A stretch of DNA of 64,000 nucleotides. Source: Cyanobacteria bacterium GSL.Bin1. Lineage in GTDB: Bacteria > Cyanobacteriota > Cyanobacteriia > Cyanobacteriales > Rubidibacteraceae. Position 1 is the first letter of the stretch. The number at the start of each line of letters is the position of its first letter. Below are positions 45,669-53,067 of this stretch, in pieces. The stretch covers positions 1-64,000 of the forward strand of contig JAAANX010000063.1 in NCBI GenBank assembly GCA_009909085.1, given 5' to 3'. The translations under genes were made by a program, and so were the position numbers. A model generated the notes under the pieces. The model searched no databases. It had not been told where the DNA came from and was given only the letters and a program-made list of their open reading frames with translations.

Positions 45669-46343
45669 GTGTGGGGTATCGTGAAAAATTATGCAAGTGT
45701 GAATCAAAGCGGATTCAATCGAACGAACCAGCCGTTTTGGCAACAACCCCTAAGATTAAAATCACTATTATTAGGGATAACCGGGTTGAGTGCGATGGGG
45801 CTCTTTGCCGTCCTCACCCAATTGTCTGTCAATGCTCAAAATATTGCTCGCAATACACAACAAACAGGACAATGGCTCAATGCATCCTTCCCCGTTGAAA
45901 ACTTTCAAACCTATACTTCTCCTTTTGGCTATCGCCAATCCCCAATAACGGGAAAAACACAGTTTCATCGTGGACTGGACTTAGCCGCACCAATGGGCAG
46001 TTACATCCGCAACTGGTGGGGTGGGAAAATTACTCAACTCTCTGATCATACGGCTTGCGGAACAATGGTTGTTATTCAATCAGGACAGTGGGAACATATC
46101 TATTGCCATCTCAAAGGTCGGGTGCAGAAAACAAGTGCCGGTTTAGTCTTGATTGATCGAGAAGGGGGAATTCGTTTAAGACAAGGTCAACAAGTTGCTA
46201 CAGGAACTCGGATTGGGCGCGTGGGAATGACCGGACGCACCACTGGACCCCATTTGCATTGGGGCTTAAAGTATGCAGGAGAATATATCGATCCCGGCTT
46301 AGTATTACGGCAAATGTATCAAGAACAAGCCGCTGTGCAGTAA
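45669..46343 (+). CDS. M23-family (LytM-type) peptidase
   Basis: A 224-residue zinc endopeptidase with GTG starts possible at 45669 and 45681. One N-terminal membrane helix lies near 34-58 (LSAMGLFAVLTQLSVNAQ). The catalytic domain covers about 80-215, with FHRGLDLAAPMG (HxxxD ligands), HIYCHLKG and THLHWGL-type PHLHWGL. It cuts peptidoglycan peptide bridges or acts as an activator of amidases in the periplasm. Both zinc motifs look complete, so activity is expected. Confidence 0.9.
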   Translation: MWGIVKNYASVNQSGFNRTNQPFWQQPLRLKSLLLGITGLSAMGLFAVLTQLSVNAQNIARNTQQTGQWLNASFPVENFQTYTSPFGYRQSPITGKTQFHRGLDLAAPMGSYIRNWWGGKITQLSDHTACGTMVVIQSGQWEHIYCHLKGRVQKTSAGLVLIDREGGIRLRQGQQVATGTRIGRVGMTGRTTGPHLHWGLKYAGEYIDPGLVLRQMYQEQAAVQ

Positions 46344-46506: not shown

Positions 46507-47949
<1,443 letters not shown>

Positions 47950-48023: not shown

Positions 48024-48953
48024 ATGCTGCAACTGCCTAACCCAGAACAGACTTGTTCCCACCCCTCCGTCGAATCCGCTTATGAGTTCTGCCGTCAAGT
48101 GACAGCGGAATACTCGAAGACGTTCTATCTCGGTACGCTTCTCATGCCCAAGGAGAAGCGCAAAGCAATTTGGGCCATTTACGTCTGGTGTCGGCGTACT
48201 GACCAACTGGTCGATGGCCCCGAAGCCGAGTTTACCACGCTCGATACCCTCGATCAGTGGGAAGAAACCTTAGAATCGATTTTTGCCGGTTATCCTGTGG
48301 AAAACCCGGATGTGGCCCTCGTAGATACCTTAGAGCGTTTTCCCTTAGATATTCAGCCCTTCCGAGATATGATTGCCGGCCAACGGATGGATTTAAAGCG
48401 CGATCGGTATGAAACCTTTGATGAGCTCTATCTTTACTGTTATCGCGTTGCCGGCACGGTCGGCTTGATGTCGAATGCGGTGTTAGGGGTGGAACCAGAG
48501 AAGGGAACGCCTCCTTGGCGAAAACAAGAACCGACTCATATTCCCACGGAAGAAGCTGTCGCACTCGGTATTGCTAACCAGCTCACTAATATTTTGAGAG
48601 ATGTGGGGGAAGATGCGGAACGTGGACGCATTTATCTCCCCTTAGAAGATTTAAGACGCTTTAATTATTGTGAGGAAGATCTCTTGCAAGGGGTAATCAA
48701 TGAAAATTGGCGACAATTAATGCAATTTCAAATTGAACGGGCACGAGGATTTTATACACAAGCTGAGAAGGGAATTTGTGATCTCAGCCGAGATTCGCGA
48801 TGGCCCGTTTGGACAGCATTAATGCTTTATCAGGGAATTTTAGATGTTATAGAACGGAACCAGTATGATGTATTTAATCAACGGGCGTATGTTCCGAAAG
48901 GCAAGAAATTTCTCTATTTACCTATTGCTTGGTTAAGAGCACAAGTGCTTTAA
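48024..48953 (+). CDS. crtB: 15-cis-phytoene synthase
   Basis: A 309-residue isoprenoid synthase of the squalene/phytoene group. Asp-rich motifs WCRRTDQLVDGP near 56-67 and TNILRDVGEDAERGRIYLP near 190-208 coordinate magnesium. It condenses two geranylgeranyl diphosphates into phytoene, the first carotenoid-specific step. It is probably co-transcribed with crtP. The precursor supply is linked to ispD elsewhere in this window. Confidence 0.97.
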   Translation: MLQLPNPEQTCSHPSVESAYEFCRQVTAEYSKTFYLGTLLMPKEKRKAIWAIYVWCRRTDQLVDGPEAEFTTLDTLDQWEETLESIFAGYPVENPDVALVDTLERFPLDIQPFRDMIAGQRMDLKRDRYETFDELYLYCYRVAGTVGLMSNAVLGVEPEKGTPPWRKQEPTHIPTEEAVALGIANQLTNILRDVGEDAERGRIYLPLEDLRRFNYCEEDLLQGVINENWRQLMQFQIERARGFYTQAEKGICDLSRDSRWPVWTALMLYQGILDVIERNQYDVFNQRAYVPKGKKFLYLPIAWLRAQVL

Positions 48954-49121: not shown

Positions 49122-49919
49122 ATGATCAATTGGAAAACACTACCCACACAGCGGGGAATTTATCAGATCACCACTGGTAGTGTCAGTTACGTTGGCTTAT
49201 CAGACAATATTCAACTCCGCGTCAAGCAACATTTAGAAAGTTCTTCCTGTCGTTCTCGTATTATCCTCGATACCAAGAAAGCAAAAATTCAGATCTTGGA
49301 ATTACTCCCCAATAGTGATGATAAGACGCTTGCCTTGCGAGAGTGGTATTGGTTTTCCAAACTCAAGCGGAAAGGGCACATTATGGTCAATGACCCGAAA
49401 ACGTTGGGCAAAACTAAAAGCGGGCAGTTTTTTCCCTCTCAAGACGCGATCGCGCAAACCAATTCACCCTTTTCTTTTGGCTGTGGTGTCAAGCTAGCAG
49501 GAATAACAACAGTCGTTATCGGATTTTTCTGCGCTGGCTTTTTAGCAGCAGGAAATATGATTCAACATCGGGTCTCGAATCAACCAGATCCCCCAACCGA
49601 GAAGTCCTCACAAACCAACTCAGCCTCTCAGCGTCCCAGTCAGCAGGAAAAACAGGAAGGGACGAATCGTAACATCTCTGCCGAGTTAGAACCCTTAAGT
49701 GCTTGTATTACTCCTTTACAACGCGGCAGTGCCAAAGAAGCCATACAACTCTTACAACGTCAGTTACAGCAACTCGGCTATTACGAAGGAGAACAGGATG
49801 GCATGTATGGTCCGGGAACGGAAGGGGCTGTCGCAGAATTTCAACGGGATCACAATTTAGGGGTAGATGGTATTGTCGGTTGTCAGACCCAAGTTGCGAT
49901 TAATCAGGCATTACGTTAA
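49122..49919 (+). CDS. GIY-YIG domain fused through a membrane helix to a peptidoglycan-binding domain
   Basis: A 265-residue protein of unusual design. Residues 11-95 form a GIY-YIG nuclease fold: GIY at 12-14, YVG at 23-25, Arg33, Glu74 in LREWYW and Asn90 in HIMVND, so the catalytic set seems complete. One membrane helix lies at about 122-144 (AGITTVVIGFFCAGFLAAG). A Ser/Gln-rich linker (150-188) leads to a peptidoglycan-binding domain (PG_binding_1) at about 194-264, with LQRQLQQLGYYEGEQDGMYG and FQRDHNLGVDGIVG. The topology puts the nuclease fold in the cytoplasm and the wall-binding part in the periplasm. Role unknown; possibly DNA handling at the envelope. Confidence 0.85.
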   Translation: MINWKTLPTQRGIYQITTGSVSYVGLSDNIQLRVKQHLESSSCRSRIILDTKKAKIQILELLPNSDDKTLALREWYWFSKLKRKGHIMVNDPKTLGKTKSGQFFPSQDAIAQTNSPFSFGCGVKLAGITTVVIGFFCAGFLAAGNMIQHRVSNQPDPPTEKSSQTNSASQRPSQQEKQEGTNRNISAELEPLSACITPLQRGSAKEAIQLLQRQLQQLGYYEGEQDGMYGPGTEGAVAEFQRDHNLGVDGIVGCQTQVAINQALR

Positions 49920-50038: not shown

Positions 50039-51673
50039 TTAATCATTTCCCTTTTTTTCTGAGGGGTCACTATTCTGAGAAATCCATATTTTTTGATGCG
50101 GCAGGGAAAGATCAATACCGGCTTGATCAAAGGCAATTTTAAGCCGACGACGATATTCTCGGGCAATGGGCCACTGTTGTAAAGGTTTGGTTTTAATCCA
50201 CACGCGAATAATGACTCCTTGGTAACTAAACTCATCAACACCAAGCAGAGTTGGTGTTTCTAAAATATCTTTTTGCCAATGGCGATCGCGCATCATACTA
50301 TCGCTAATCTCTTCAATAATTCGGATCGCTTTTTCCACATCAGCCTGATAAGCAATGGGGATCTTTAAATCCACTTGTGACCAATTACTCGTGTAGTTTG
50401 TCACGGTCCGAATTTCACTATTAGGAATTGTAATTAAACGCCCTTCTGTATCTCGCAGTTGAGTAATTCTTAAATTGATTGCTTCAACAAAGCCGGTTGC
50501 ATCAGCAATACCAACCACATCTCCCACTGCATATTGATCTTCAAGAATAATAAAAAAGCCGTTAATGGCATCTCGAATTAAGTTTTGAGACGCAAAAGAA
50601 ATGGCAACCCCAATTAAGCCAGCACCTGCCAGTAAGGGGGCAATATTCACCCCAACGATAGACAAACCAATGAGAATACCAACGATTATCCAAGTCACAA
50701 CCATCACACTTTTAGCAACGCTAGAAATTGTAGAAATCCGAAGTTGTAAACGGAGATTTGCTTCTGGGGTTAGTAAGTAATTATTGGCGAGAGCCGCATT
50801 AAATTTATCAATTAAAATAAAGGAAAAACGGATCAAAAAATAAGTGATTAATCCTGCTACAAATAAACGGAAGGGAACGCGGAAAATATTAATAATATAA
50901 ACTTGGAGAAATCGTGTGTAAGGAAATAAACCAACCAAATAAAGCGTTCCTCCGACCCAAATGGTAACCCGGATAATTTTTGTGAGACGATATTTGATTT
51001 CTGCAATTTGTTGACGTTGATTTTGTGTCAGTTTCGTGGAAATTGCTTGTTGGGAGTTACTATCAAGACCAGCACGAATAGCAGTTTTTTGTTGATGAAA
51101 TCGCTTTTCTAAATAAAAGAGTGCAATTGTCAATACAAACAAAAGTAATAGCGCGATCGCGCCTTTTTGGGCTTGAGCGATTAAAAATTCCTCTTCTCGT
51201 TCTTGTCGTGCTTGTCGTAGCGCATTTTCAATTTCCCGAACCATTTCCTCTGCCCGGTGCTGAATGCTCATTGATTTCAGCGCTGCATCTTGACTGGTTA
51301 CACTCAGCAAGCGGGTATTCCATTTATCCACACTCACATAAATATCAACCAGTTGTCCTGCGGGTTCCTGGTACACATTTATGTCTGCAGACGGATTTTT
51401 TAAGTAGTAGCGAGTAATGTTAGCGAGTCGTTGCTCAATTTCCTCAATGCGAGTTGATAAAGTCGATTCACTACCTGCCAACTCGACCAGACAGCGTCCG
51501 TCTAAACGGATACATTTTGAAGTAACTTTATCGGTTGACGGAGAAAAAAGATTAGGCGAATTTCCGGAAAAATTGGGCAGAGAAGGGAATTGTGCTTTTA
51601 CAGAACCAGTAAGCGGCACGATAACGACCAAAATCGCTATCAAGCACGCTAACCAAACGTATTTTTGCTTCAT
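50039..51673 (-). CDS. MscS-family mechanosensitive channel
   Basis: A 544-residue membrane protein. A signal sequence or first helix covers about 8-28, a periplasmic helical domain about 30-165, then four or five membrane helices (about 168-190, 230-255, 262-285, 320-350). The MscS pore segment is at about 345-368 (APLLAGAGLIGVAISFASQNLIRD), and the beta domain with QYAVGDVVGIADATGFVEAINLRIT follows. It should open under membrane tension to release ions during osmotic downshock. The extended N-terminus is like larger MscK or YnaI-type proteins rather than the small E. coli MscS. Confidence 0.9.
   Translation of the reverse strand: MKQKYVWLACLIAILVVIVPLTGSVKAQFPSLPNFSGNSPNLFSPSTDKVTSKCIRLDGRCLVELAGSESTLSTRIEEIEQRLANITRYYLKNPSADINVYQEPAGQLVDIYVSVDKWNTRLLSVTSQDAALKSMSIQHRAEEMVREIENALRQARQEREEEFLIAQAQKGAIALLLLFVLTIALFYLEKRFHQQKTAIRAGLDSNSQQAISTKLTQNQRQQIAEIKYRLTKIIRVTIWVGGTLYLVGLFPYTRFLQVYIINIFRVPFRLFVAGLITYFLIRFSFILIDKFNAALANNYLLTPEANLRLQLRISTISSVAKSVMVVTWIIVGILIGLSIVGVNIAPLLAGAGLIGVAISFASQNLIRDAINGFFIILEDQYAVGDVVGIADATGFVEAINLRITQLRDTEGRLITIPNSEIRTVTNYTSNWSQVDLKIPIAYQADVEKAIRIIEEISDSMMRDRHWQKDILETPTLLGVDEFSYQGVIIRVWIKTKPLQQWPIAREYRRRLKIAFDQAGIDLSLPHQKIWISQNSDPSEKKGND

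Positions 51674-51786: not shown

Positions 51787-53067
<1,281 letters not shown>

Follow-up and report, generated by a model that had tools for sequence, protein, structure and literature searches.

The open reading frame at positions 49122..49919 (+ strand) of the stretch of DNA analyzed here, a 64,000-nucleotide sequence from Cyanobacteria bacterium GSL.Bin1 (hereafter designated the window), raises the question of what a GIY-YIG nuclease fold would do when joined, across a membrane, to a domain that binds the cell wall. GIY-YIG nucleases are known as soluble enzymes of repair, restriction, homing, and recombination. A conserved member of this superfamily that is wired to the wall would, if true, couple murein directly and physically to DNA processing.

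Domain layout and predicted topology

The whole gene, found exactly at the coordinates given in a first-pass annotation of the window, encodes a protein of 265 residues, which was divided by ORF and Pfam analysis into a GIY-YIG head, a membrane helix, a linker, and a PG_binding_1 domain. The GIY-YIG domain (Pfam PF01541) spans residues 12–83 (49155..49370, +) with a score of 27.1 bits against a cut-off of 22.6, and the PG_binding_1 domain (Pfam PF01471) spans residues 206–258 (49737..49895, +) with 66.8 bits against a cut-off of 23. Both domains exceeded their cut-offs in all seven proteins of the family; the GIY-YIG scores, 26.6–29.7 bits in the six other orthologues, did so by only 4–7 bits. 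Outside the head, PG_binding families alone were matched in the Pfam scan of the protein, and this protein gave the sole PF01471 match found in its own genome. The motif residues named in the first-pass annotation (G12-I13-Y14, Y23-V24-G25, R33, E74, and N90) are all there; Y14, Y23, R33, E74, and additionally H37 lie inside the Pfam domain, and N90 lies just beyond it.

The structure prediction that had been suggested as a check gave a GIY-YIG fold. The head, modeled with AlphaFold from nine sequences, of which six were added phage GIY-YIG homologues, was obtained as a three-stranded sheet with flanking helices, like I-TevI and UvrC (pLDDT 85.6; pTM 0.81), the phage sequences in the alignment leaning the model toward this fold. 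In a Foldseek search with the head model, the best 11 PDB matches were to I-TevI, UvrC, and R.Eco29kI only, followed by noise (probability 0.51–1.00; best E 1.7e-3); the top match was 1ln0 (I-TevI), and the UvrC matches were 1ycz and 1yd3. The named matches among viral structures were mostly GIY-YIG or intron endonucleases. Profile score, active-site residues, and I-TevI/UvrC-like predicted fold all agree with PF01541, and by these three lines the head is a member of the GIY-YIG superfamily.

Following the head, the hydrophobic segment at about residues 123–148 (49488..49565, +) is the sole one in the protein (Kyte-Doolittle mean of 1.94 over 21 residues; next best, 0.44) and is predicted from hydropathy, in 7/7 proteins, to form a single transmembrane helix. 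A helix also appeared at residues 123–151 in a full-length AlphaFold model from three sequences, a low-confidence model with a pLDDT of 35. The linker (residues 149–194; 49566..49703, +) is low in complexity, with 72% polar or charged residues, and is predicted to be disordered from its composition, low identity, and weak constraint. The order of domains proposed at first pass is therefore upheld by Pfam and hydropathy in all seven orthologues. Two cysteines, Cys195 (49704..49706, +) and Cys254 (49881..49883, +), frame the wall domain and are invariant in the alignment of seven, whereas in the head only a single cysteine is conserved.

No signal-like segment was seen at the N-terminus; the single helix comes only after about 120 residues, and the wall domain lies beyond it. 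Because of this lack of a signal start, and of the single internal helix followed by a wall domain with an invariant Cys pair, we infer a type II topology (N-in/C-out), predicted from hydropathy and logic, in which Cys195 and Cys254 would be linked by an extracytoplasmic disulfide. As for the charge distribution, residues 80–122 contain 7 K/R versus 2 D/E, and the counts in the 25-residue flanks of the helix give a mixed positive-inside signal. This mixed signal could be taken to favor the inverted topology, in which the head lies in the periplasm and breaks down extracellular DNA, serving competence or scavenging, and wall-bound nucleases are indeed known outside the present family. A single pass, however, places the two domains on opposite sides of the membrane, and PG_binding_1 must face the wall; together with the missing N-terminal signal and the confinement of the invariant cysteine pair to the C-terminal part, this makes the inverted arrangement very improbable.

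Distribution and conservation of the family

Each of the six genomes examined from the genus (Halothece type) encodes a full-length orthologue, as does that of a second genus in the family (G007); the gene is present in a single copy in every case. Outside the genus, a search of 386 genomes across the phylum with the sequence of the head and its profile gave nothing beyond weak matches of a UvrC-like or generic kind, and the sister genera G006 and G008 had no orthologue. Two PG_binding matches in G006 and G008 were examined in case they were truncated orthologues, but neither qualified: one belongs to a PG protein with a signal peptide, and the other is a partial sequence at the end of a contig, in a genome where no head to match it was found elsewhere. 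A scan of genome contigs, which reaches close relatives only, detected just two relatives, on contigs of G003 and G005. Moreover, the combination of helix and wall domain was absent among the sampled larger GIY-YIG ORFs of the order, those read being UvrC, phage-like, or other fusions. The first-pass expectation of many homologues was thus borne out for retention of the nuclease residues and the helix (7/7) but not for breadth, which is limited to one genus and one sister genus. The family is narrow and is found in salt-loving cyanobacteria of one family; with this restriction, it cannot serve a general bacterial need.

During these searches, two other GIY-YIG proteins were seen. A 480-residue ORF (L099:826-2265, on G488:C212) has a GIY-YIG domain (43.5 bits) inserted between FtsK/TrwB-like ATPase matches and may resemble a DNA pump that carries its own GIY-YIG nuclease. 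In the genome of the window itself, a 286-residue protein with a C-terminal GIY-YIG domain (L003:258-2137, contig C21) is flanked by two SNase-domain ORFs that resemble copies of each other.

Among the seven family members, Y14, Y23, R33, H37, E74, and N90 are invariant. Of these, H37, located four residues past R33, completes a six-residue active site as in I-BmoI, in which it consists of Y6, Y17, R27, H31, E74, and N87 (PMC3161791). When the family was aligned with phage I-TevI-type endonucleases from viral contigs, the sole invariant columns were G12, Y14, I16, Y23, G25, R33, H37, and E74. Just past the GIY-YIG domain, there is a near-invariant head tail (residues 89–102; 49386..49427, +), reading VNDPKTLGxTxSGQ in most members and including N90; V89, N90–G96, T98, G101, and Q102 are invariant in the seven sequences, and the stretch was seen here in this family alone. 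The head has a net charge of +10. In pairwise comparisons, for which several dS values were saturated, constraint was strongest in the head (dN/dS about 0.05, range ~0.04–0.07), intermediate in the wall domain (0.08–0.33), and weakest in the linker (0.4 or more where computable). Indeed, the linker of the window protein is only 11–36% identical to those of its orthologues. With seven full-length orthologues, purifying selection, and both Pfam domains in each, the objection that the frame is a chance fusion fails.

The same data bear on whether the head cuts DNA at all. It is conceivable, if improbable, that the GIY-YIG fold serves only to hold DNA, tying the nucleoid to the envelope with no cleavage; a basic head combined with a wall anchor would suit such a tether, and a permanently active membrane nuclease would be risky. 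A pure binder would nevertheless be expected to lose some catalytic residues, and all six are invariant despite divergence of the head, which is 60% identical in the window protein and its G007 orthologue.

Gene setting and proposed function

In the window, the gene is preceded on the same strand by crtP, encoding 15-cis-phytoene desaturase (46522..47949, +; NCBIfam TIGR02731), and directly by crtB, encoding phytoene synthase (48024..48953, +; NCBIfam NF045686), and is followed by a convergent gene for an MscS-type mechanosensitive channel (50039..51673, −; Pfam) and by ahcY, encoding adenosylhomocysteinase (51793..53067, +; TIGR00936). In five of the seven genomes, the gene lies behind a co-directional crtP-crtB pair, with a gap from crtB of ~35–50 bases in four genomes and 168 in the window, and four of these five also have the convergent MscS gene and ahcY further downstream. 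Conservation of the neighborhood, which had been proposed for checking, was accordingly partial: crtB lies directly upstream in 5/7 genomes, but G005 and G007 show a different setting. No division or DNA-processing genes were linked to the gene, its neighbors being carotenoid genes, and scans for promoters and terminators gave nothing above chance. Three further features of the region were observed. An M23 peptidase gene (murein endopeptidase-like; window 45669–46343) lies just upstream of crtP and was dropped as a candidate wall-related partner, as it is not beside crtP in other genomes. In G004 (L062:11108-12698), the MscS-type gene next to the GIY-YIG orthologue is split over two ORFs and may be a pseudogene or frameshifted. 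In G003 (L061, between 7423 and 12016), ~4.5 kb absent in the other genomes separates the MscS and GIY-YIG genes.

The MscS gene might hint at envelope stress and hence at a sensor or signaling protein, in which wall strain or turnover outside the cell controls the head inside. In its favor are a layout like that of one-pass sensors, the convergent MscS gene in 4/7 genomes, and the high-salt life. No sensor with a GIY-YIG head is known, however, and the neighborhood is not kept in G005 and G007, so that this role appears quite improbable.

An envelope-located defense nuclease, which would cut phage or other foreign DNA on entry at the membrane, was also considered. Its location at the point of DNA entry would be suitable, and GIY-YIG domains do occur in restriction enzymes (PMC1564403). 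Defense genes are, however, patchy and fast-changing, in contrast to the presence of this gene in 6/6 genomes of the genus, its mostly stable chromosomal synteny, and the slow evolution of its head. PADLOC gave no match for the protein, its one match being desaturase-like and to the neighboring crtP only, and the surroundings were neither mobile nor defense-related: the neighbors are housekeeping genes, and no modification enzyme adjoins. Furthermore, no relatives were found in phage, plasmid, and viral-contig collections, PHROGs gave no match, and a UvrC-profile scan of the viral contigs yielded none. A role in defense is thus considered unlikely. Housekeeping is favored over it because of the genus-wide presence, single copy, mostly stable position, slow change, and lack of a match to defense models.

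Since the layout, nuclease residues, and helix hold in 7/7 orthologues, the best-supported reading is the one first proposed from the sequence, a head that cuts or binds DNA in the cytoplasm and is moored to the wall. More specifically, the protein is probably a wall-tethered, cytoplasm-facing GIY-YIG nuclease, which would cut DNA only at the cell edge and most likely serves chromosomal housekeeping. Presumably, the basic N-terminal head acts in the cytoplasm as a catalytically competent, metal-dependent DNA nuclease and would be kept at the inner membrane by the helix (single-pass, type II), while the flexible linker would span the periplasm and the disulfide-framed PG_binding_1 domain would grip murein. 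Such a wall tether would limit cutting to DNA lying against the cell envelope. One such task could be the cleavage of branched or trapped DNA close to the closing septum. This septal role, taken by itself, is a guess and rather doubtful; among candidate substrates, septum-trapped DNA is the most attractive, with LEM-3 setting the precedent for a division-site GIY-YIG enzyme (PMC5820297). A single genus could show whether wall tethering confines a nuclease to the envelope, and for which DNA.

Comparison with known systems

In line with the initial statement that no described protein of this layout was known, no description of the GIY-YIG and PG_binding_1 pair was found in the open-access literature. 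A survey of the GIY-YIG superfamily in 2006 recorded fusions to NUMOD, UvrBb, LEM, RVT, ExoIII, EndoIII, and other domains, and no membrane or wall-binding partner among the bacterial fusions (PMC1564403). The protein is apparently a rare new domain architecture within a known superfamily, to be called not found elsewhere rather than unique. It shares its wall domain with ordinary cyanobacterial PG_binding_1 proteins (L012–L034), which on examination mostly had a signal peptide-like start; of 22 others examined from the order, the majority appear to be exported, carrying a hydrophobic stretch close to the N-terminus, and in none does an evident cytoplasmic domain stand ahead of an internal helix. 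Two secreted PG_binding_1 proteins, L118 (G001) and L034 (G006), contain long tandem repeats between the signal peptide and the wall domain.

Several relatives resemble the head alone. The cyanobacterial proteins L057 and L058 match it by profile with 93% probability but have no Arg at the position aligned with R33 and no wall domain. The GIY-YIG domain of chloroplast AtGRXS16, the sole PDB entry reached by sequence profile (weakly; E 0.15), is fused in the plant to glutaredoxin. The N-terminal domain of UvrC has the same fold (1ycz and 1yd3), a profile similarity of 93% probability, and the same catalytic set except for Tyr in place of His. The family protein, however, is without the C4, UvrBb (UvrB-binding), EndoV-like, and HhH parts of UvrC, only PG_binding families being matched outside the head, and the genome has a separate UvrC (L002). 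I-TevI and I-BmoI of phage group I introns share with the family the fold, the six active-site residues, and the spacings from Y to R (10) and from R to H (4). Instead of their NUMOD DNA-binding part, for which the Pfam scan gave no match, the family has a membrane helix and PG_binding_1, and its gene sits outside introns and mobile elements, in a chromosomal crtP-crtB setting unlike that of homing endonucleases.

LEM-3/ANKLE1 of animals (COG3680) share no evident sequence kinship with the family beyond the superfamily level: they have ankyrin and LEM parts, neither of which was matched in the Pfam scan of the present protein, and no membrane helix or wall binding. The catalytic set of ANKLE1, in which cleavage is weakened or lost when the two tyrosines, His, Glu, or Asn are mutated, largely matches the six active-site residues of the family (PMC10287932). 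LEM-3/ANKLE1 is a GIY-YIG nuclease held at the division site, where it cuts DNA bridges (PMC5820297, PMC10287932), and thus provides an analogy in the way of working. By this analogy, the present protein could be, with rather low probability, a functional, non-homologous counterpart of LEM-3/ANKLE1, that is, a septal-wall nuclease that cleaves chromosomes trapped as the division plane closes, with the wall positioning the enzyme.
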